Source: Dugong dugon
Taxonomy: Eukaryota > Chordata > Mammalia > Sirenia > Dugongidae
DNA: 64,000 bases
Assembly: GCA_030035585.1 (NCBI GenBank)
Contig: CM057476.1
Coordinates: forward strand, 3,281,001-3,345,000
Direction of reading: 5' to 3'
A program made the position numbers and the translations under genes. The notes under the pieces were generated by a model that saw only the letters and a list, made by a program, of their open reading frames with translations, did not search any database and had not been told where the DNA came from. Below are positions 4,601 through 57,091 of this stretch, in pieces. Positions within the stretch are counted from its first letter, which is position 1. The number at the start of each line of letters is the position of its first letter.

Positions 4601-5744
4601 CAGTGGTGTTGTTAGGTGCTGTGGAGACGGTTCTGACTCATAGTGACCCCATGTACAACAGAATGAAACACTGCCCGATCCTGCGCCACCCTCACAATCC
4701 TTGTTATGCTGGAGCCCACTGAGGCAGCCACTGTGTCAGTCCATCTCGTTGAGGGTCTTCCTCTTTTTTGCTGACCCTCTACTTTACCAAGCATGATGTC
4801 CTTCTTCAGGGTCTGATCCCTCCTGATAACATGTCCACAGTATGTAAGACATAGTCTCGCCATCCTTGCTTCTAAGGAGCATTCTGGTTCTACTTCTTCC
4901 AAGACAGATTTGTTCATTCTTTTGGCAGTCCATGGTATGTTCAGTATTCTTCGCCAACACCACTATTCAAAGGTGTCAACTCTTCTTCAGTCTTCCTTAT
5001 TCATCGTCCAGCGTTTGCATGCATATGAGGTGATCAAAAACACGGCTTAGGTCAGGCTCACCTTAGTCCTCAAGGTGACATCTTTGCTTTTCAACACTTT
5101 AAAGAGGTCTTTTGCAGCAGATTTGCCCAATGCAATGTGTCATTTGATTTCTTGACTGCTGCTTCCACGGGCGTTGATTGTGGATCCAAGTAAAATGAAA
5201 TCCTTGACAACTTCAATCTTTTCTCCGTTTATCATGATGATGCTTATTGGTCCAGTAGTGAGGATTTTTGTTTTCTTTATGTTGAGGTGTAATCCATACT
5301 GAAGGCTGTGGTCTTTGATCTTCATCAGTAAGTGCTTCAAGTCTTCTTCACTTTCAGCAAGCAAGGTTGTGTCATCTGCATAATGGAAGTTGTTAATGAG
5401 TCTTCCTCCAGTCCTGAAGGCACGTTCTTCTTCATACAGTCCAGCTTCTCGGGTTATTTGCTTATCATATAGATTGAATAAATATGGTGAAAAGATACAA
5501 CCCTGGCGCACACCTTTCCTGACTTGAAACCACGCAGTATCCCCTTGTTCTGTCTGAACGACTGCCTCTTGATCTAAGTACAGGTTCCTCATAAACACAA
5601 TCAAGTGTTTTGGAATTCCCATTCTTCCAAATGGTATCGATAGCTTGTTATGATCCACACAGTTGAATGCCTTTGCATAGCCAGTAAAACACAGGTAAAC
5701 GTCATTCTGGTATTCTCTTTCAGCCAGGATCCATCTGACACACA
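4601..5744 (-). mobile_element. RTE (BovB-like) LINE, 5' truncated, inserted in an AfroSINE
   Basis: Read on the minus strand it encodes part of the RTE reverse transcriptase. A motif-A-like stretch (YAKAFNCVDHNKL) comes first, then GVRQGCIFSPYLFNLY (motif B) and HYADDTTLLAESEEDL (motif C with the catalytic YADD). The frame runs 5140-5781 and is then broken by stops and frameshifts. The last 500 bp match the 3' end of the other RTE copy at 48096-50055. It is dead and 5' truncated inside the RT domain. The flanks ATGACATACA (about 4590) and CTGACACACA (about 5737) may be its diverged target duplication. Confidence 0.9.
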
Positions 5745-5790
5745 CCGAATCACCAAAAGTCAGAGTCGACTTGACGGCCACTGGTTTTGA
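5745..5790 (+). mobile_element. AfroSINE right half, continuation of 4446
   Basis: TCACCAAAAGTCAGAGTCGA then CTTGACGGCCACTGG is the expected 3' continuation of the B-form SINE interrupted at 4600. Confidence 0.8.
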
Positions 5791-23588: not shown

Positions 23589-24121
23589 TGTCATGGATTG
23601 AGTTGTGTCCCCAAAAAATATCTGTCAGTTTGGCTGGGTCATAATTCCCAGTGTTGTATGACTGTGTAATCTGATGTGATTTCCTTCTGTGTTGTAAACT
23701 CTATCACTATAATGAGGTTATATGTGATCTCCTTATGTGTTGTAAATTCTGTCACTGTGATGAGGTTATGCTGATGAGGTTTACAAGATTAGATAGTGTC
23801 TTAATCCAGTCTCTTTTGAGATATAAAAGAGAGAAGCGAGCAGAGACACATGGGAACCTCATACCACCAAGAAAGCAGTGCCAAGAGCAGAGCGTGTCCT
23901 TTGGACCTGAGGTTCCCGCGCTGAGATGCTCCCAGACCAAGGGAAGACTGATGCATCACAAGACCTTTCTCTAGAGACGACAGAGAGAGAAGGCCTTCCC
24001 CTGGAGCTGGCGCCCTAAATTTGGATTTGTAGCCTACTGGACTGTGAGAGAATAAACTTCTCTTTGTTAAAGCCATCCACTTGTGGCAATTCTGTTAGAG
24101 CAGCACTAGATGACTAAGACA
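23589..24121 (+). mobile_element. solo LTR, afrotherian MaLR-like family, with internal tandem duplication
   Basis: 533 bp from TGTCATGGATTGAGTTGTGT to AGATGACTAAGACA, flanked by ACCAC (23584-23588) and CCCAC (24122-24126). A tandem duplication of about 47 bp (CTCTATCACTATAATGAGG and CTGTCACTGTGATGAGG, near 23677-23770) makes it longer than its relatives. Confidence 0.88.
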
Positions 24122-28512: not shown

Positions 28513-29191
28513 AAGAATAGATGTCACAGTTCCTCCTTTGCCATGAGACCAGAAGAACTGGATGGTGCCTGGCTACCAATATTGAATATTTTGATTAAAC
28601 AGTCTATGGAAAAATGAACAACTACCTCCTTTGCCATGAGACCAGAAGAAATGGATGGTGCCTGGCTACCACTGCTGAACATTTTGATCAAAGATTCTAT
28701 AGAAGAATCCTGATCAAAAGGGGGAAAATAATGAACAAATTTCAAATTGTCATAAAATCCAGAATTTCTGGATCCATGGAGGCTGGACAGACCCTCAAAA
28801 CTACTGCCCTGAAATAATCTCTAAACCTTAAACAAAAAATATTCTTTATGTTTTAAAGAATTTTAAAGTCTTCTTTAAACAAAACAGTAGTTTAGCTTAA
28901 TTGGTAAAGTGTGTCTGCCTTGGGCACTGTGCTCTTTTAAAGAACTATCTATATGAGATCAAACTGACAATAGCAACTCAAAAGTTATATAGGAAGCTTA
29001 AGAAGCAGTGAGTTTATGTTAACAGGGGAGGAACAACTCAGAAAAGGAGGGTGAGACTGGTTGCACATTGTAATCGACGTCACTGAATTGTACAGGTAGA
29101 AACTGCTGACTTGGGTACGTTCTGCTGTGTATATTTTCAACAAGAAAAAAATGAAATACATTATTTAAAAAAAAAAGAACAGATGTCACAG
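28513..29191 (+). mobile_element. LINE 3' end with 17-bp TSD and internal tandem duplication
   Basis: The insertion (28530-29174) is bounded by AAGAATAGATGTCACAG (28513-28529) and AAGAACAGATGTCACAG (29175-29191). It ends in an A-rich tail after TGTATATTTTCAACAAG. Near the 5' end the block CTCCTTTGCCATGAGACCAG is repeated about 92 bp later. The TSD and A-tail prove target-primed LINE insertion with 5' truncation. Confidence 0.85.
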
Positions 29192-31099: not shown

Positions 31100-31445
31100 C
31101 AGAGTTTGTTGTTATCTGCTGTCCAGTTGTCTCTGACGCACGGTAATCCCATGGATGATGCAAGGAAATGCTGCCCGGCCCTGTGCCATTCCCATGATTG
31201 GTTGTGGATAGGATTGTTGTGATCCATAGGGCATTCACTGGCTGATCTTCAGAAGTAGATCTCCAGGCCTTTCTTCCTGGTCTGTATAAGTCTGGAGCTC
31301 CACTGAAGCCTGTTCAGCATCATATCAACATGCAAGCCTCCATTGACAGATGGGTGGTGGCTGTGCATGAGGTGCATTGGCCAGGAATGGAAGCTGGGTC
31401 TCCTGCACGGAAGGCGAGAATTCTACCACTGAGCCACCACTGCTG
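31100..31445 (-). mobile_element. tRNA-Gly-headed SINE, nearly full length
   Basis: On the minus strand, GTGGTGGCTCAGTGGTAGAA, TTCTCGCCTTCCGTGCAGGA and a B-box-like CTTCCATTCCTGGCCAATGC form the tRNA head. The end is RTE-like (31100-31150). Confidence 0.85.
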
Positions 31446-32702: not shown

Positions 32703-32940
32703 GTGCCTTGGAGACAAGCAGCTCCTTCTAGAAGAAGCTGAAAATCTCCTTCCCAGGCACCACCTGCCAGAATCTCATTGAAGTGTGGATGATGAAAGCA
32801 AACTTTGTGCCTTTTATGAGGAACGTGTGACCACAAAAGTGGCTGCTCAGGCTCTGGATAAGGAGTGGTTTATCCAGATGCATTAGGTGGTTTGCATCTG
32901 TGTTGGGAACAGCAACAAAGCTCCCTGTGAAGCTGGGTGT

Positions 32941-33455
32941 CTTTTTTTAATTATAATTTGTTTTATTTATTTATTGTGGTCGTTGAGAATATACACAGCA
33001 GAACATACACCAATTCAGCAATTTCCATACTTACAATTTAGTGACATTGATTACATTCTACAAGTTGTGCAGCCATTCTCACCCTCCTTTTCTAAGTTGT
33101 TCCTCCCTCATTTACATAAACTCACTGCCCCTAAAGCTTCCTATCTAATCTTTCGAGTTGCTGTTGTCAATTTGATCCTATATAGACAGATCTTAAAAGA
33201 GCATAATGCTCAAGGCAGATATTCTTCACTAGTTAAGTTAAACTATTGTTTGGTTTAAAGAAGACTTCAAGGGATATTTTTGGTTTAAGGTTTAAAGATT
33301 ATCTCAGGGCAATACTTCCAGGGGTTCATCCAGCCTCCATGGCTCCAGGAAGTCTGAATTCCATGAGAATTTGAAATTCTGTTCTGCCTTTCCCCCTTTT
33401 GATCAGGGTTTCTTCTACAGAATCTTTGATCAAAATGTTCAGTAACAGTAGCTGG
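32941..33455 (-). mobile_element. LINE 3' end, left part, split by an LTR
   Basis: The same family as 21742, with the T-rich start TTTTTTTAATTATAATTTGT (reverse of the A-tail). It breaks at GCTGG (33451-33455) and resumes at 33979. Confidence 0.7.
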
Positions 33456-33978
33456 TGTTATGGATTGAATTGTGTCCCCCCAAAATGTTTGTCAACTTGG
33501 CTAGGCCATGATTCCCAGTACTGTGTGATTGTCCACCATTTTGTGATCAGATGTGATTTTCCTATGTGTTTTAAATCCTACCTCTATGATGTTAACGAGG
33601 CAGAATTAGAGGCAGTTATGTTAATGAGGCATGACTCAATCAACAGGATTAGGCTGTATCTTGAGTCTATCTCTTTTGAGATATAAAAGAGAGAAGTGAG
33701 CAGAGAGGCATGGGACCTCATGCCCCTAAGAAAGATGTGCCAGAAGCAGAGTGCATTCTTTGGACCCAGGGTCCCTGCGCTGAGAAGCTACTTGACCCAA
33801 TGGAAGACTGATGACAAGGACATTTCCCCAGAACCAACAGAGAAAGAAAGCCTTCCCCTGGAGCTGGCAACCTGAATTCGGACTTCTAGCCTCCTATACT
33901 GTGAGAAAATAAATTTCTGTTTGTTAAAGCCATCCACTTATGGTATTTCTGTTATAGCAGCACTAGATGATTAAGATA
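33456..33978 (+). mobile_element. solo LTR inserted in a LINE
   Basis: 523 bp from TGTTATGGATTGAATTGTGT to CTAGATGATTAAGATA, flanked by GCTGG (33451-33455) and GTTGG (33979-33983). LINE sequence is continuous across the insertion, so the LTR is younger than the LINE. Confidence 0.9.
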
Positions 33979-34082
33979 GTTGGGCATCATTCAGTTCGTC
34001 CGGTCTCATGGCAAAGGAGGCAGTTGTTCATGGAGGCAATCAGCCACACATTCCATTTCCCCCTCCTATTTCTGACTCACCT
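33979..34082 (-). mobile_element. LINE 3' end, right part
   Basis: Continues the copy at 32941: CCGGTCTCATGGCAAAGGAG, then GGCAGTTGTTCATGGAGGCA. Confidence 0.7.
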
Positions 34083-34234
34083 TCTTCGAAGCAGGGTGTC
34101 TTTCCTCATGACCCCTGCTGCTGAGTAAGCCACATCCTGTTACAGACCCCAGGGAGTTGGTGGCGGAAAGTGCAACTCTGTTTGGACTTGTACTGTAGAT
34201 GCCAATCTGAGTATTCTCACCTTGGTTATAACAA

Positions 34235-34486
34235 TAAAACATGGAGGGGGTGCCCAGAATAGGTAAATCCATAGAGACAGAGAGAAACTGGTGGTTGTCA
34301 GGGGCTGTGTAGGAAAGAGTGGGGAATAACTGCTTAATGGGCATGGGGCTTATTTTTGGGGTGATATGAATGTTCCGGACCTAGACAGAGGTGATGGTTG
34401 CACATGCTGAATGGACTTAATGCCACTGAGTTGTTCACTTTACAATGGTTAATTTTATGTTAATTGAACTGCACCTCAATTTAAAA
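34235..34486 (+). mobile_element. L1M 3' UTR
   Basis: AATAGGTAAATCCATAGAGA, GGTTGTCAGGGGCTGTGTAG and GGTTAATTTTATGTTAATTG, then CACCTCAATTTAAAAAAA, are a clear L1M 3' end. It lies 20 bp before the RPS6 pseudogene. Confidence 0.85.
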
Positions 34487-34506
34487 AAAGTTGTTGTTTT
34501 TTTTTT

Positions 34507-37500
34507 ATAAGAGGGAGAAGGATATTCCTGGACTGACCGATAGTATTGTATCTTGTGGCCTGGGCCCAAACAAGCCACCAACAGAGTCCTCAAACTTTTC
34601 AATCTTTCCAGAGAAGATGTTCACAGTGAGCTGTAAGAGAGTCCTGAACCAAGACGGCAGGAGCCCCAGGACCAAAGCATCTGAGATTCAGCATCTGTTA
34701 CTCCACACAACACAAACACCGCACATCGCTCTGAAGAAACAACACACTCTGAAAAATGAGAAGAACAACACACTCATAAGAATGAGGAGAACAACGCACT
34801 TAAAAGAATGAGAAGGAGAACGATGCACTCAGAAGAATGAGAACAACACCCTCAGAAGAATGAGAACAACGCCCTCAGAAGAATGAGAACAACGCCCTCA
34901 GAAGAATGAGAACAACGCCCTCAGAAGAATGAGGAGGAGGACAACGCACTCAGAAGAATGAGAACAACGCCCTCAGAAGAATGAGGAGGAGGACAACGCA
35001 CTCAGAAGAATGAGGAGAACAACGCACTCAGAAGAATGAGAACAACGCCCTCAGAAGAATGAGGAGGAGGACAACGCACTCAGAAGAATGAGAAGAACAA
35101 CGCACTCAGAAGAATGAGAACAACGCCCTCAGAAGAATGAGGAGGAGGACAACGCACTCAGAAGAATGAGGAGAACAACGCACTCAGAAGAATGAGAACA
35201 ACGCCCTCAGAAGAATGAGGAGGAGGACAACGCACTCAGAAGAATGAGAAGAACAACGCACTCAGAAGAATGAGAAAAACGCCCTCAGAAGAATGAGGAG
35301 GAGGACAACGCACTCAGAAGAATGAGGAGAACAACGCACTCAGAAGAATGAGAACAACGCCCTCAGAAGAATGAGGAGGAGGACAACGCACTCAGAAGAA
35401 GGAGAACAACGCCCTCAGAAGAATGAAGAGGAGGACAACGCACTCAGAGGAATGAGGAGAACAACGCACTCAGAAGAATAAGGAGAACAACGCCCTCAGA
35501 AGAATGAGGAGAACAACGCACTCAGAAGAATGAGAAGGAGAACAACGCACCCAGAAGAATGAGGAGAACAACGCCCTCAGAAGAATGAGGAGGAGGACAA
35601 CGCACTCAGAAGAATGAGGAGAACAACGCCCTCAGAAGAATGAGGAGGAGGACAACGCACTCAGAAGAATGAGGAGAACAACGCCCTCAGAAGAATGAGG
35701 AGAACAACGCACCCAGAAGAATGAGGAGAACAACGCACCCAGAAGAATGAGGAGAACAATGCACCCAGAAGAATGAGGAGAACAATGCCCTCAGAAGAAT
35801 GAGGAGAACAACGCACCCAGAAGAATGAGGAGAACAACGCCCTCAGAAGAATGAGGAGGAGGACAACGCACTCAGAAGAATGAGGAGAACAACGCCCTCA
35901 GAAGAATGAGGAGAACAACGCACCCAGAAGAATGAGGAGAACAACGCACCCAGAAGAATGAGGAGAACAACGCCCTCAGAAGAATGAGGAGGAGGACAAC
36001 GCACTCAGAAGAATGAGGAGAACAACGCCCTCAGAAGAATGAGGAGAACAACGCACCCAGAAGAATGAGGAGAACAACGCACCCAGAAGAATGAGGAGAA
36101 CAACGCCCTCAGAAGAATGAGGAGGAGGACAACGCACTCAGAAGAATGAGGAGGACAACGCCCTCAGAAGAATGAGGAGGACAACGCACTCAGAAGAATG
36201 AGGAGGACAACGCACTCAAAAGAATGAGGAGGAGAACAACGCACTCAGAAGAATTAGAACAACGCCCTCAGAAGAATGAGGAGGACGACAACGCACTCAG
36301 AAGAAGGAGAACAACGCCCTCAGAAGAATGAAGAGGAGGACAACGCACTCAGAGGAATGAGGAGAACAACGCGCTCAGAAGAATAAGGAGAACAACGCCC
36401 TCAGAAGAATGAGGAGAACAACGCACTCAGAAGAATGAGAAGGAGAACAACGCACCCAGAACAATGAGGAGAACAACGCCCTCAGAAGAATGAGGAGGAG
36501 GACAACGCCCTCAGAAGAATGAGGAGAACAACGCCCTCAGAAGAATGAGGAGAACAACGCACCCAGAAGAATGAGGAGAACAACGCCCTCAGAAGAATGA
36601 GGAGAACAACGCACCCAGAAGAATGAGGAGAACAACGCCCTCAGAAGAATGAGGAGGAGGACAACACACTCAGAAGAATGAGGAGAACAACGCCCTCAGA
36701 AGAATGAGGAGGACAACGCACTCAGAAGAATGAGGAGGACAACGCACTCAGAAAATGAGGAGAACAACGCCCTCATAAGAATGAAGAGGAGGACAACGCA
36801 CTCAGAGGAATGAGGAGAACAACGCACTTAGAAGATTAAGGAGAACAACGCACCCAGAAGAATGAGGAGAACAACGCACTCAGAAGAATGAGAAGGAGAA
36901 CAACGCACCCAGAAGAATGAGGAGAACAACGCCCTCAGAAGAATGAGGAGGAGGACAACGCACTCAGAAGAATGAGGAGAACAACGCCCTCAGAAGAATG
37001 AGGAGAACAACGCACCCAGAAGAATGAGGAGAACAACGCACCCAGAAGAATGAGGAGAACAATGCCCTCAGAAGAATGAGGAGGAGGACAACGCACTCAG
37101 AAGAATGAGGAGGACAACGCCCTCAGAAGAATGAGGAGGACAACGCACTCAGAAGAATGAGGAGGACAACGCACTCAGAAGAATGAGGAGGAGAACAACG
37201 CACTCAGAAGAATGAGGAGGAGAACAATGTACTCAGAAGAATGAGAAGGAGAACAACGCACTCAGAAGAATGAGGAGGACAACGCACTCAGAAGAATGAG
37301 GAGGACAACGCACTCAGAAGAATGAGGAGGAGAACAGCGCACTCAGAAGAATGAGGAGGAGAACAACGCACTCAGAAGAATGAGGAGAACAACGCCCTCA
37401 GAAGAATGAGGAGGAGGACAACGCCCTCAGAAGAATGAGGAGAACAACGCCCTCAGAAGAATGAGGAGAACAACGCCCTCAGAAGAATGAGGAGAACAAC

Positions 37501-39826
37501 GCACCCAGAAGAATGAGGAGAACAACGCACCCAGAAGAATGAGGAGAACAACGCCCTCAGAAGAATGAGGAGGAGGACAACGCACTCAGAAGAATGAGGA
37601 GGACAACGCCCTCAGAAGAATGAGGAGGACAACGCACTCAGAAGAATGAGGAGGACAACGCACTCAGAAGAATGAGGAGGAGAACAATGCACTCAGAAGA
37701 ATGAGGAGGAGAACAATGCACTCAGAAGAATGAGAAGGAGAACAACGCACTCAGAAGAATGAGGAGGACAACGCACTCAGAAGAATGAGGAGGACAACGC
37801 ACTCAGAAGAATGAGGAGGAGAACAGCGCACTCAGAAGAATGAGGAGGAGAACAACGCACTCAGAAGAATGAGGAGAACAACGCCCTCAGAAGAATGAGG
37901 AGGACAACGCACTCAGAAGAATGAGGAGAACAACGCACTCAGAAGAATGAGGAGGAGAACAACGCACTCAGAAGAATGAGAAGGAGAACAACGCACTCAG
38001 AAGAATGAGGAGAACAATGCCCTCAGAAGAATGAGGAGGACAACGCACTCAGAAGAATGAGGAGAACAACGCACTCAGAAGAATGAGGAGGAGAACAGCG
38101 CACTCAGAAGAATGAGGAGAACAACGCACTCAGAAGAATGAGGAGGAGAACAGCGCACTCAGAAGAATGAGGAGAACAACGCCCTCAGAAGAATGAGAAG
38201 GAGAACAGCGCACTCAGAAGAATGAGGAGAACAACGCACTCAGAAGAATGAGGAGAACAACGCACTCAGAAGAAGGAGAAGGAGAACAGCGCACTCAGAA
38301 GAATGAGGAGAACAACGCACTCAGAAGAATGAGGAGAACAACGCCCTCAGAAGAATGAGGAGGACAACGCACTCAGAAGAATGAGGAGAACAACGCACCC
38401 AGAAGAATGAGGAGAACAACGCACCCAGAAGAATGAGGAGGACAGCGCACTCAGAAGAAGGAGAAGGAGAACAACGCACTCAGAAGAATGAGAAGGAGAA
38501 CAGCGCACTCAGAAGAAGGAGAAGGAGAACAACGCCCTCAGAAGAAGGAGAAGGAGAACAGCGCACTCAGAAGAAGGAGAAGGAGAACAACGCCCTCAGA
38601 AGAAGGAGAAGGAGAACAACGCACTCAGAAGAATGAGAAGGAGAACAGCGCACTCAGAAGAATGAGAAGGAGAACAGCGCACTCAGAAGAATGAGGAGAA
38701 CAACGCACTCAGAAGAATGAGAAGAACAACGCACTCAGAAGAATGAGGAGAACAACGCCCTCAGAAGAATGAGGAGAACAACGCACCCAGAAGAATGAGG
38801 AGAACAACGCCCTCAGAAGAATGAGGAGGAGGACAACGCACTCAGAAGGAGAACAACGCCCTCAGAAGGATGAAGAGGAGGACAACGCACTCAGAAGAAT
38901 GAGGAGAACAACGCACTCAGAAGAATGAGGAGAACAGCACCCTCAGAAGAATGAGGAGAACAACGCACTCAGAAGAATGAGGAGAACAACGCCCTCAGAA
39001 GAATGAGGAGAACAACGCCCTCAGAGGAATGAGGAGAACAACGCACTCAGAAGGAGAACAACGCACTCAGAAGAATGAGAAGGAGGACAACGCACTCAGA
39101 AGAATGAAGAGGAGGACAACGCACTCAGAAGAATGAAGAGGAGGACAACGCACTCAGAGGAATGAGGAGAACAACGCACTCAGAAGAATGAGGAGAACAA
39201 CGCCCTCAGAAGAATGAGGAGAACAACGCACTCAGAAGAATGAAGAGGAGGACAACGCACTCAGAAGAATGAGGAGGACAACGCACTCAGAAGAATGAGG
39301 AGGACAACGCACTCAGAAGAATGAGGAGGAGAACAATGCACTCAGAAGAATGAGGAGAACAACGCCCTCAGAAGAATGAGGAGAACAACGTACTCAGAAG
39401 AATGAGGAGAACAACGCACTCCGAAGAATGAGAAGGAGAACAACGCACTCAGAAGAATGAGGAGGACAACGCACTCAGAAGAATGAGGAGAACAACGCAC
39501 TCAGAAGGAGAACAACGCACTCAGAAGAATGAGAAGGAGGACAACGCCCTCAGAAGAATAAGGAGGAGAACAGCACCCTCAGAAGAATGAGGAGGAGGAC
39601 AACGCACTGAGAAGAATGAGGAGGAGGACAAGGCACTGAGAAGAATGAGGAGCAGGATGCAGAATATGCCAGACTCGTGGCCAAGAGATTGGAGGAGGCC
39701 AGGGAAAAGGGTCATCAGCAGATGGCCCAGAGATGGAGGCTGTCCGCTCTGAGAGCTTCTACCTTTGAGTCTGGTCAAAAATGAGACCCTCTAAGGGTAA
39801 CAGAGAAAGATCAGACATTAAAAAAA
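34507..39826 (+). pseudogene. RPS6: RPS6 processed pseudogene, 5' truncated, split by a minisatellite
   Basis: RPS6 is a component of the small ribosomal subunit; this copy is dead. The left part (34507-34735) reads KREKDIPGLTDSIV, LGPNKPPTESSNFSIF, KRVLNQDGRSPRTKASEIQH and IALKKQHTLKNEK. These follow RPS6 from about residue 115 to 204 with many substitutions. The right part (39641-39784) reads [40 protein letters not shown] and TFESGQK plus stop, matching the RPS6 C-terminus (about 201-249, including the RRRLSSLRAS phosphosite region in altered form). A decayed 3' UTR (GTAACAGAGAAAGATCAGAC) and a short A-run end it near 39826. It has no introns and is 5' truncated, as expected of an L1-mobilised retrocopy. 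Residue numbers are counted from memory of the human protein. Between the two halves lies the array at 34735-39640. Confidence 0.9.
34735..39640 (+). repeat. minisatellite derived from RPS6 codons about 197-205
   Basis: About 4.9 kb and roughly 185 tandem units of 23, 26 or 29 bp. Each reads CAACGCACTCAGAAGAATGA followed by one to three GGA/GAG steps and AA or GA. In the RPS6 frame one unit is Q-R-T-Q-K-N-E-E, against QRTKKNKEE in RPS6. Nine codons would be 27 bp, so the 26-mer lost one base and the frame shifts at every unit. Common variants change GCACTC to GCCCTC or GCACCC. The first copies (34735-34830) are the most irregular and the closest to RPS6. The array is strongly purine-rich on this strand and one CpG (AACGC) recurs in nearly every unit. 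In-frame TGA codons make it noncoding. Confidence 0.97.
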
Positions 39827-48095: not shown

Positions 48096-50055
48096 GCCAG
48101 ACATCAAGGACATCATACATGAAGAAAGCAAGGGGTCATTAAAAAGACAGGAAAGAAAGAAAAGGCCAAAATGGATGTCAGAAGAGACTCTGAAACTTGC
48201 TCTTGAACGTCGAGTCGCTAAAGCAAAAGGAAGAAATGATGAAGTAAAAGAACTGAGCAGAAGATTTCAAAGGGCAGCTCGAGAACACAAAGTACTATAA
48301 TGACATGTGCAAAGCGCTGGAGATAGAAAACCAAACGGGAAGAACATGCTCGGCATTTCTCAAGCTGAAACAACTAAAGAAAAAATTCAAGCCTTGAGTT
48401 GCAATACTGAAGGATTCTATGGAGAAAATATTAAACGACACAGGCAACATCAAAAGAAGATGGAAGGAATACACAGAGTCATTACACCAAAAAGAATTGT
48501 CAACGCTCAACCATTTCAGGAGGCAGCATATGATCAGGAACCGATGGTATTGAAGGAAGACGTCCAAGCTGTACTGAAGGCGTTGGCAAAACACAAGGCT
48601 CCAGGAACTGACGGAATATCAATTGAGATGTTTCAACAAACGGATGCAGTGCTGGAAGTGCTCACTCGTCTATGCCAAGAAATTTGGAAGACAGCTACCT
48701 GGCCAACCTACTGGAAGAGATCCATATTTATGCCTACTTGAACAAAGGTGATCCGACCGAATGCAGAAATTATCGAACAACATCATTAATATCACACACA
48801 AGTAAAATTTTGCTGAAGATTATTCAAAAGCGGCTACAGCAGTATATTGACAGGGAACTGCTAGAAATTCAAGCCGGATTCAGAAGAGGACATGAAACCA
48901 GGGATATCATTGCTGATGTCAGATGGATCCTGGCTGAAAGCAGAGAATATCAGAAAGATGTTTACCTGTGTTTTATTGACTATCCTAAGGCATTTGACTA
49001 TGCGGATCATAACAAATTATGGATAACATTGTGAAGAATAGGAATACCAGAACACTTGATTGTGCTAAGTGAACATAGATCAAGAGGCAGTTGTTCGGAC
49101 ACAACAAGGGGATACTGCGTGGTTTAAAGTCAGGAAAGGTGTGCGCCAGGGTTGCATCCTTTCACCATACCTATTCAATCTGTATGCTGAGCAAATAATC
49201 CAAGAAGCTGGAATATATGAAGAAGAACGTGGCATCAGGATTGGAGGAAGACTCATTAACAACCTGTGTTATGCAGATGACACAACCTTGCTTGCTGAAA
49301 GTGAAGAAGACTTGAAGCACTTACTCATGAAGATCACAGACCACAGCCTTCAGTATGGATTACACCTCAACATAAAGGAAACAAAAATCCTCACAACTGG
49401 ACCAATAAGCAGCATCATGATAAACGGAGAAAAGATTAAAGTTGTCAAGGATTTCATTTTATATGGATTCACAATCAACGCTCACGGAAGCAGCAGTCAG
49501 GAAATCAAAAGACGCATTGCATGGGGCAAATCTGCTGCAAAAGACCTCTTTAAAGTGTTGAAAAGCAAAGATGTCAGCTTGAAGACTAAGGTGCACCTGA
49601 CCCAAGCCATCGTATTTCCAGTTGCATCATATGCATGGGAAAGCTGGACAATGAATAAGGAAGACTGAAGAAGAACTGACGCCTTCGAATTGTGGTTTTG
49701 GGGAAGAATACTGAATATACTGGGGACTGCCAAAAGCATGAACAAATCTGCCTTGGAAGGAGTACAAACAGAATGCTCCTTAGAAGCAAGAACGGCGAGA
49801 CTATGTCTTACGTACTTTGGTCATGTTGTCAGGAGGGATCAGACCCTGGAGAAGGACGTCATGCTTGGTAAAGTAGAGGGTCAGTGAGAAAGGGGAAGAC
49901 CCTCGATGAGATGGACTGACACAGTGGCTGCCACAGTGGGCTCAAGCATAACAACGATTGTGAGGATGGCGCAGGACTGGGTGGTGTTTCCTTCTGTGGT
50001 GCATAGGGTCGCATGGGTTGGAACTGACTCCACAACTCCTAACAATAACAGCATG
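48096..50055 (+). mobile_element. RTE (BovB-like) LINE, 5' truncated, with RT motifs
   Basis: A 2-kb fragment of an RTE non-LTR retrotransposon. Translated segments in order: MPDIKDIIHEESKGSLKRQE (pre-RT linker); NKGDPTECRNYRTTSLISHT; IQAGFRRGHETRDIIADVRW; FIDYPKAFDYADHNKL (motif A region); GVRQGCILSPYLFNLYAEQI (motif B); NNLCYADDTTLLAESEEDLK (motif C with YADD). A thumb/connection region follows. The 3' end is CGATGAGATGGACTGACACA to GGTTGGAACTGACTCCACAA and AACAATAACAGC. The endonuclease half is missing and there are frame breaks near 48300, 48725, 49035 and 49670, so it is inactive. Its 3' end explains the shared tail of both SINE families here. Confidence 0.93.
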
Positions 50056-55978: not shown

Positions 55979-56122
55979 GAGCTTATACGTGCACGTGGTC
56001 AGGTATCTAATGTGGCTTCCACGGAGTATCTGAAGGGTCCCTGAAAGTAGCAGAAACTGAATCTTCTTGAACATGTATCCCCGAGCCTCAGTCCAATGCC
56101 ACATCAGGCACGGCAAAGATTA

Positions 56123-57091
<969 letters not shown>

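Follow-up and report, generated by a model that had tools for sequence, protein, structure and literature searches.

A dugong minisatellite very probably born inside a processed RPS6 pseudogene

How a long tandem array comes to stand in the middle of a ribosomal protein sequence is the question raised by a locus in the genome of the dugong, Dugong dugon. The window, meaning the whole stretch of 64,000 nucleotides analyzed here (C19:3281001-3345000 in a genome of 3.158 Gb and 196 contigs), contains one large tandem array, for which Tandem Repeats Finder gives positions 34738 to 39652, a period of 26 bp, 184 copies, 86% matches, and 7% indels. A first-pass annotation of the sequence had described this array as a minisatellite, expanded about 185-fold from a segment of a dead copy of the RPS6 gene. 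The 184 units counted here agree with that number, and the array (C19:3315739-3320652) is very probably a single-locus minisatellite born inside a processed RPS6 pseudogene, its units being tandem copies of one 26-base piece of the old coding sequence.

The RPS6 homology claimed at first pass is present on both sides of the array. Among PDB chains, the left flank corresponds to residues 118 to 205 of eS6 (best expectation value, E, of 1.2e-10) and the right flank to residues 208 to 244 (E of 7.3e-8). In tblastn searches of the window alone, the RPS6 protein matches the left side with an E of 2e-13, the match continuing into the array, and the right side with an E of 5e-13; no Pfam family is reported for the two short flank translations. 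Further matches to residues 2 to 45 at 32735-32868 (E of 3e-9) and to residues 82 to 116 at 34135-34239 (E of 9e-7) place the start originally assigned to the pseudogene, 34507, too far to the right. By these alignments, the retrocopy is near full length, with a start near 32.7 kb, about 1.8 kb to the left of that position. The end given for it, 39826, is indeed the last A of a poly(A) remnant. Letters that resemble the human 5' untranslated region (UTR) may extend back to about 32700, where they adjoin a (TG)n tract. The retrocopy and its array are composed as follows.

32735 to 32943, + strand: RPS6 retrocopy, 5' piece, codons about 2 to about 68 (tblastn matches to residues 2 to 18 and 18 to 45; DNA alignment to the parent gene)
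34088 to 34239, + strand: RPS6 retrocopy, second piece (119 identities and 33 mismatches versus the parent; tblastn match to residues 82 to 116)
34509 to 34738, + strand: RPS6 retrocopy, third piece, up to the array (eS6 residues 118 to 205; E of 1.2e-10)
34739 to 39652, + strand: minisatellite array of 184 units (Tandem Repeats Finder and unit map; the last unit starts at 39628 and extends into the right flank)
39653 to 39784, + strand: RPS6 retrocopy, last coding piece, with the in-frame stop TGA at 39782-39784 (eS6 residues 208 to 244, E of 7.3e-8; tblastn match to residue 249)
39785 to 39826, + strand: RPS6 3' UTR and poly(A) remnant (alignment with the parent gene extends as far as its CATACATTA end)

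The same genome contains an intron-bearing RPS6 gene on C13, the readable exons of which join into a reading frame that stays open between codon 27 and the stop. Its protein differs from human RPS6 at 2 of 223 residues. This gene (L007, C13:23993000-24002500) also shows a run of 76 N over about codons 2 to 26. Compared with this parent, the four aligned pieces of the retrocopy sum to 569 identities and 162 mismatches (77.8%); this sum counts the 15-bp duplication described below in both of the first two pieces and takes in a doubtful T-rich start of the third piece as well as edge units in the last two. After trimming of the array edges, 523 of 666 positions are identical. The first piece, aligned at 32811-32943, contributes 91 identities and 33 mismatches, and the third-piece alignment at 34494-34763, which takes in the doubtful start and the first array unit, contributes 211 and 56. 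Outside CpG, the flanks differ from the parent at 130 of 636 sites (20.4%); at about the same rate, 5 of the 26 positions of the parental 26-mer are changed in the array consensus. At the joint, the left piece runs to parental coordinate 535, and 516 is already the first coordinate of the right piece; the two halves therefore overlap by part of a unit, and no parental sequence is lost. The left edge unit keeps a parental letter absent from the array consensus. This alignment to the same-genome gene bears out the proposed derivation of the unit from the RPS6 stretch QRTKKNKEE at the point where the halves meet: the array interrupts the processed copy, and nothing is missing at the joint.

The copy is a processed pseudogene, as had been supposed. 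Introns are absent at three parental joints (the first piece passes over 61, the third over 419, and the last over 577), the coding sequence is followed by a 3' UTR and a poly(A) remnant of seven A at 39820-39826, and the reading frame is broken by indels of 1, 2, and 7 bases relative to the parent. In being intronless, in carrying a 3' UTR with a poly(A) remnant, and in its decayed frame, it is like other ribosomal protein processed pseudogenes. It differs from the 7 other RPS6 retrocopies found in the genome in that none of those has an array at the corresponding place.

Alternatively, the pseudogene might have acquired an already existing satellite or minisatellite through chance insertion or capture, as tandem arrays are common in repeat-rich regions and a long LINE-like (long interspersed nuclear element) insertion lies at the same A-rich codons of an RPS6 retrocopy on C26. 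This explanation has hardly any probability, given that the unit is the parental segment exactly at the joint and that the flanks overlap in parental coordinates. An exact 23-base pattern of the unit is matched 95 times in the 3.16-Gb genome, always within the array locus, versus 0 times for the reversed control, in a search that would miss diverged copies elsewhere; this speaks against a satellite unrelated to RPS6, the alternative raised at first pass. A shorter unit pattern has no match in viral or GTDB contigs (viral, bacterial, and archaeal collections), which argues weakly in the same direction. The C26 retrocopy (L045, C26:130859501-130869400) was itself a candidate for a second array, because a gap of about 6.5 kb is flanked on each side by a match to residues 191 to 205, but the sequence in the gap is an insertion, and Tandem Repeats Finder reports only three short arrays of 2.4 to 3.7 copies at that locus.

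The remaining RPS6 copies serve as controls for the birth inside the pseudogene. A search of the genome with the RPS6 protein gives at least 25 matches from 125 scored candidates, grouped by eye into the parent, the array locus, and 7 other retrocopies. None of these 7 carries an array at the same spot, and a built-in tendency of this RPS6 segment to expand is rejected on that account. In L002 to L005 the site is unexpanded, with lengths of 54, 54, 54, and 51 bp versus 54 bp in the parent, and about 17 bp are deleted at or beside it in each of L046 and L047. The divergence of the latter two copies from the parent comes close to that of the array-bearing copy (480 identities and 123 mismatches for L046, 505 and 108 for L047), and they have no array; therefore, age alone does not give rise to one. 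A small tandem duplication (52 bp, two copies) is found at L046 outside its retrocopy.

A unit map was made by cutting the array at the anchor ACAACGCACTCAGA. The 184 units comprise 58 distinct sequences, with lengths of 26 bp (103 units), 29 bp (63 units), 23 bp (13 units), 20 bp (3 units), 25 bp (1 unit), and 33 bp (1 unit); the 33-bp unit is the last one and reaches into the flank. With the exception of two lengths, all equal 2 modulo 3. Units are built from a 22-bp core followed by a variable GAR-type tail, which accounts for the length ladder in 3-bp steps. The tails are GAGA in 77 units, GAGGAGG in 28, GAGG in 22, AAGGAGA in 18, GAGGAGA in 14, and A in 13, with others being fewer. Purines make up 72.7% of the + strand of the array, and its G+C content is 48.9%. 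The reading of the unit in the RPS6 frame, as given at first pass, holds for single units and for the edges but not for the whole array, as the unit length is not a multiple of 3. No open frame runs through the array: each of the six frames contains 52 to 61 stops, which rules out a protein-coding repeat gene, and the longest open stretch has 85 codons. Stops in every frame and unit lengths stepping by 3 around 26 indicate that the array is noncoding. With a 26-bp unit and 4.9 kb of sequence, it lies within the ranges for minisatellites tabulated in PMC10509279 (units of about 10 to 100 bp, arrays of about 0.1 to 20 kb). Its 184 units exceed the up to 100 repeat units given in the consulted sections of PMC6947457, which describe the definition as being without consensus and do not treat this number as a fixed limit.

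The units differ from their consensus by 1.7% per site (56/3240), a figure based on 180 of the 184 units (20- and 25-bp units omitted) with columns 8 and 10, which hold common variants, and CpG omitted. Since this value within the units stands against the flank-like distance of the consensus from the parent, we infer that the retrocopy is much older than the ancestor from which most present units descend. At the two ends, the first five and last five of the units used show a mean of 1.6 mismatches from the consensus core, compared to 0.33 inside the array, a contrast reached by 0 of 100,000 permutations (again 180 of the 184 units, without the 20- and 25-bp units and columns 8 and 10). Exact repeats of up to 229 bp (offset 133) occur inside the array, a 453-bp block recurs at offset 489 with 3 mismatches, and the longest recurring run of unit types is 7, compared to a maximum of 5 in 300 shuffles. 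Diverged edges together with repeated blocks are what unequal exchange or slippage of whole blocks produces, with stale edges left behind. The difference between units hardly grows with distance (6.2% at lag 1 and 6.5% at lag 80), which suggests that block transfer weighs more than single-unit slippage. The same features bear on the possibility that the length or order of the array is partly an assembly artifact. Assembly is difficult where units are nearly identical, and a single assembly is available; nevertheless, such an artifact is very improbable, as a simple collapsed or looped assembly would not be expected to yield 58 different units, repeated blocks, and edges that have diverged, and the contig measures 82.8 Mb.

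The locus lies about 3.3 Mb from one end of this contig, and its likely host gene belongs to the TMEM132 family, a coding exon of which is contained in the window.

56120 to 57085, − strand: open reading frame with a coding exon of a TMEM132-family gene (PF23481, E of 4.1e-66; PF15705, E of 2.1e-32; PF23039, E of 1e-14)

PF23039 is matched on C19 by three stretches, all on the minus strand, at 3337147-3337278 (positions 1 to 44), 3233496-3233648 (positions 44 to 94), and 3186133-3186297 (positions 92 to 147). Their order and strand suggest a single gene, and if they are exons of one gene, the array and the retrocopy apparently lie antisense within an intron of about 103 kb. The host gene is presumably TMEM132D.

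The CpG content of the array requires separate consideration. The observed/expected ratio of CpG is 0.60 in the array, compared to 0.34 in the rest of the window. The parental CAGCGCAC would bring one CpG into each unit, and this CpG is kept in 168 of the 184 units, in contrast to 0 of 13 parental CpGs in the retrocopy flanks (32811-39820), where per-site survival has a 95% upper bound of 0.21. The counts for other retrocopies, covering four of the 7, are 5/19 kept in L002, 10/18 in L003, 2/6 in L004 (in part), and 7/19 in L005. Homogenization alone leaves the expected CpG decay along the lineage unchanged; either chance preserved the CpG up to a recent common ancestor of the units, or methylation of the array is lower. 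Attributing the CpG retention to GC-biased gene conversion is unsupported, with a rank test P of 0.29 and a GC content that is also raised in the flanks (48.8%, compared to 46.7% in the parent). The CpG ratio and the retained CpGs favor a regulatory or chromatin element in the TMEM132 intron, for example, a germline-hypomethylated and CpG-rich one, that is kept by selection. This proposal is given very little credence, as a recent common ancestor suffices for the likeness of the units, with no need for selection, and GC-biased conversion is likewise unsupported. It is also unlikely, though conceivable, that the array is a hypermutable germline variable number tandem repeat that escapes CpG decay via hypomethylation or continual turnover and forms, out of the codons of a dead gene, a young CpG-dense element in the TMEM132 intron; if so, it could influence the chromatin or splicing of the TMEM132 gene. 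Most likely, the array is neutral, and no function is required.

For a birth inside the pseudogene, the following multistep course can be proposed. RPS6 mRNA would have been reverse transcribed and inserted; the resulting copy lies on the + strand, retains about 78% identity to the gene, and has received two repeat insertions. A segment of about 26 to 29 bp, consisting of QRTKKNKEE and its GAR-rich edge, is present about 184 times between flanks that are otherwise contiguous. A first tandem duplication of this segment would have been followed by growth and homogenization through replication slippage, unequal exchange, or gene conversion in blocks of 1 to about 18 units, and slippage in the (GAR)n junction may have led to the 3-bp length ladder. 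For the first duplication, the best guess is the imperfect GAR runs bounding the segment (GAAGAAG on the left, GAGGAGGAG on the right).

Several observations weigh against this account. Flanking direct repeats of 5 to 10 bp at unit-length offsets were not found among offsets 15 to 35: at offsets 20, 23, 26, and 29, the longest exact repeat is 4 bp in the parent (offset 26) and 3 bp in the flank-unit-flank stretch. A 5-bp repeat in the parent at offset 15 and repeats of 5 to 6 bp in the flank-unit-flank stretch at offsets 18, 19, and 22 do not fall on unit lengths, and founder duplication via short direct repeats is thus unsupported. Inspection by eye revealed no convincing target-site duplication of the retrocopy itself, the 5' end of which abuts the (TG)n tract. 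The copy number comes from one assembly. The mean pairwise difference of the units, 6.4% over all 22 columns in 179 units, is above what the figure of 1.7% suggests. Lastly, the CpG contrast between array and flanks is unexpected under equal neutral methylated decay, unless survival was lucky.

The two insertions in the retrocopy, with the duplication that borders the first, are located as follows.

32929 to 32943, + strand: left copy of the 15-bp target-site duplication of insert A, in RPS6 letters (aligned to parent 112 to 126)
32944 to 34087, no strand assigned: insert A, a dispersed repeat into which another is nested at about 33456-33976 (copies of both elsewhere in the window)
34088 to 34102, + strand: right copy of the 15-bp target-site duplication of insert A (aligned to parent 112 to 126)
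34240 to 34508, no strand assigned: insert B, a dispersed repeat (two partial copies in the window, 70 to 72% identity)

The two copies of the duplication are identical at 14 of 15 positions, and other copies of insert A and its nested repeat in the window are 74 to 89% identical (matches of 100 bp or more). Insert B resembles what we take to be a LINE-1 3' end. Tandem Repeats Finder also reports short tandem duplications at 28532-28708 (93 bp, 1.9 copies), short parts of which match insert A, and at 23674-23769 (48 bp, 2.0 copies). Elsewhere in the window, reverse transcriptase fragments (PF00078) at 5140-5781 (− strand) and 49069-49668 (+ strand) represent decayed LINEs, presumably of the RTE kind. 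Stretches similar to tRNA-Gly at 187-257 and 31371-31443 (− strand), found by ARAGORN and, for the second, also by Rfam, are probably parts of tRNA-derived short interspersed nuclear elements (SINEs). A SINE motif, which we assume to be AfroSINE, occurs 11 times between 1549 and 48068 (up to 3 mismatches; none expected by chance), as fits an afrotherian genome.

Minisatellites nucleated in retroelements are described in the consulted sections of PMC6947457 for Alu, for the MaLR long terminal repeat (mouse Ms6-hm), and for SINE B1. As in these cases, a retro-derived stretch has become a tandem unit in the dugong; in contrast to them, the unit is old coding sequence, as it comes from the processed pseudogene of a cellular mRNA. 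The model of Haber and Louis (1998), as described in the same part of that review, assumes flanking direct repeats of 5 to 10 bp at birth. The dugong array is similar in that a short stretch would first have been duplicated and then amplified by slippage, conversion, or unequal crossing-over, and it departs from the model in that the RPS6 segment lacks such repeats at unit-length offsets. The open-access papers listed by full-text searches, subscription papers being outside their scope, yielded no description of this locus, in line with the first-pass annotation, and no report of a minisatellite born in a processed pseudogene; the sections seen of PMC6947457, PMC3449122, PMC4489472, and PMC10509279 contain no such case.

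The array is thus an ordinary single-site minisatellite with an unusual birthplace and not a new kind of system. Its founder is known almost to the letter, as it stems from a conserved gene whose parent copy lies in the same genome. With 7 array-free sister copies as controls, one can read and date how the array arose and grew, how its edges decayed, and how its CpGs fared, which makes the locus a clean teaching case and a possible marker.

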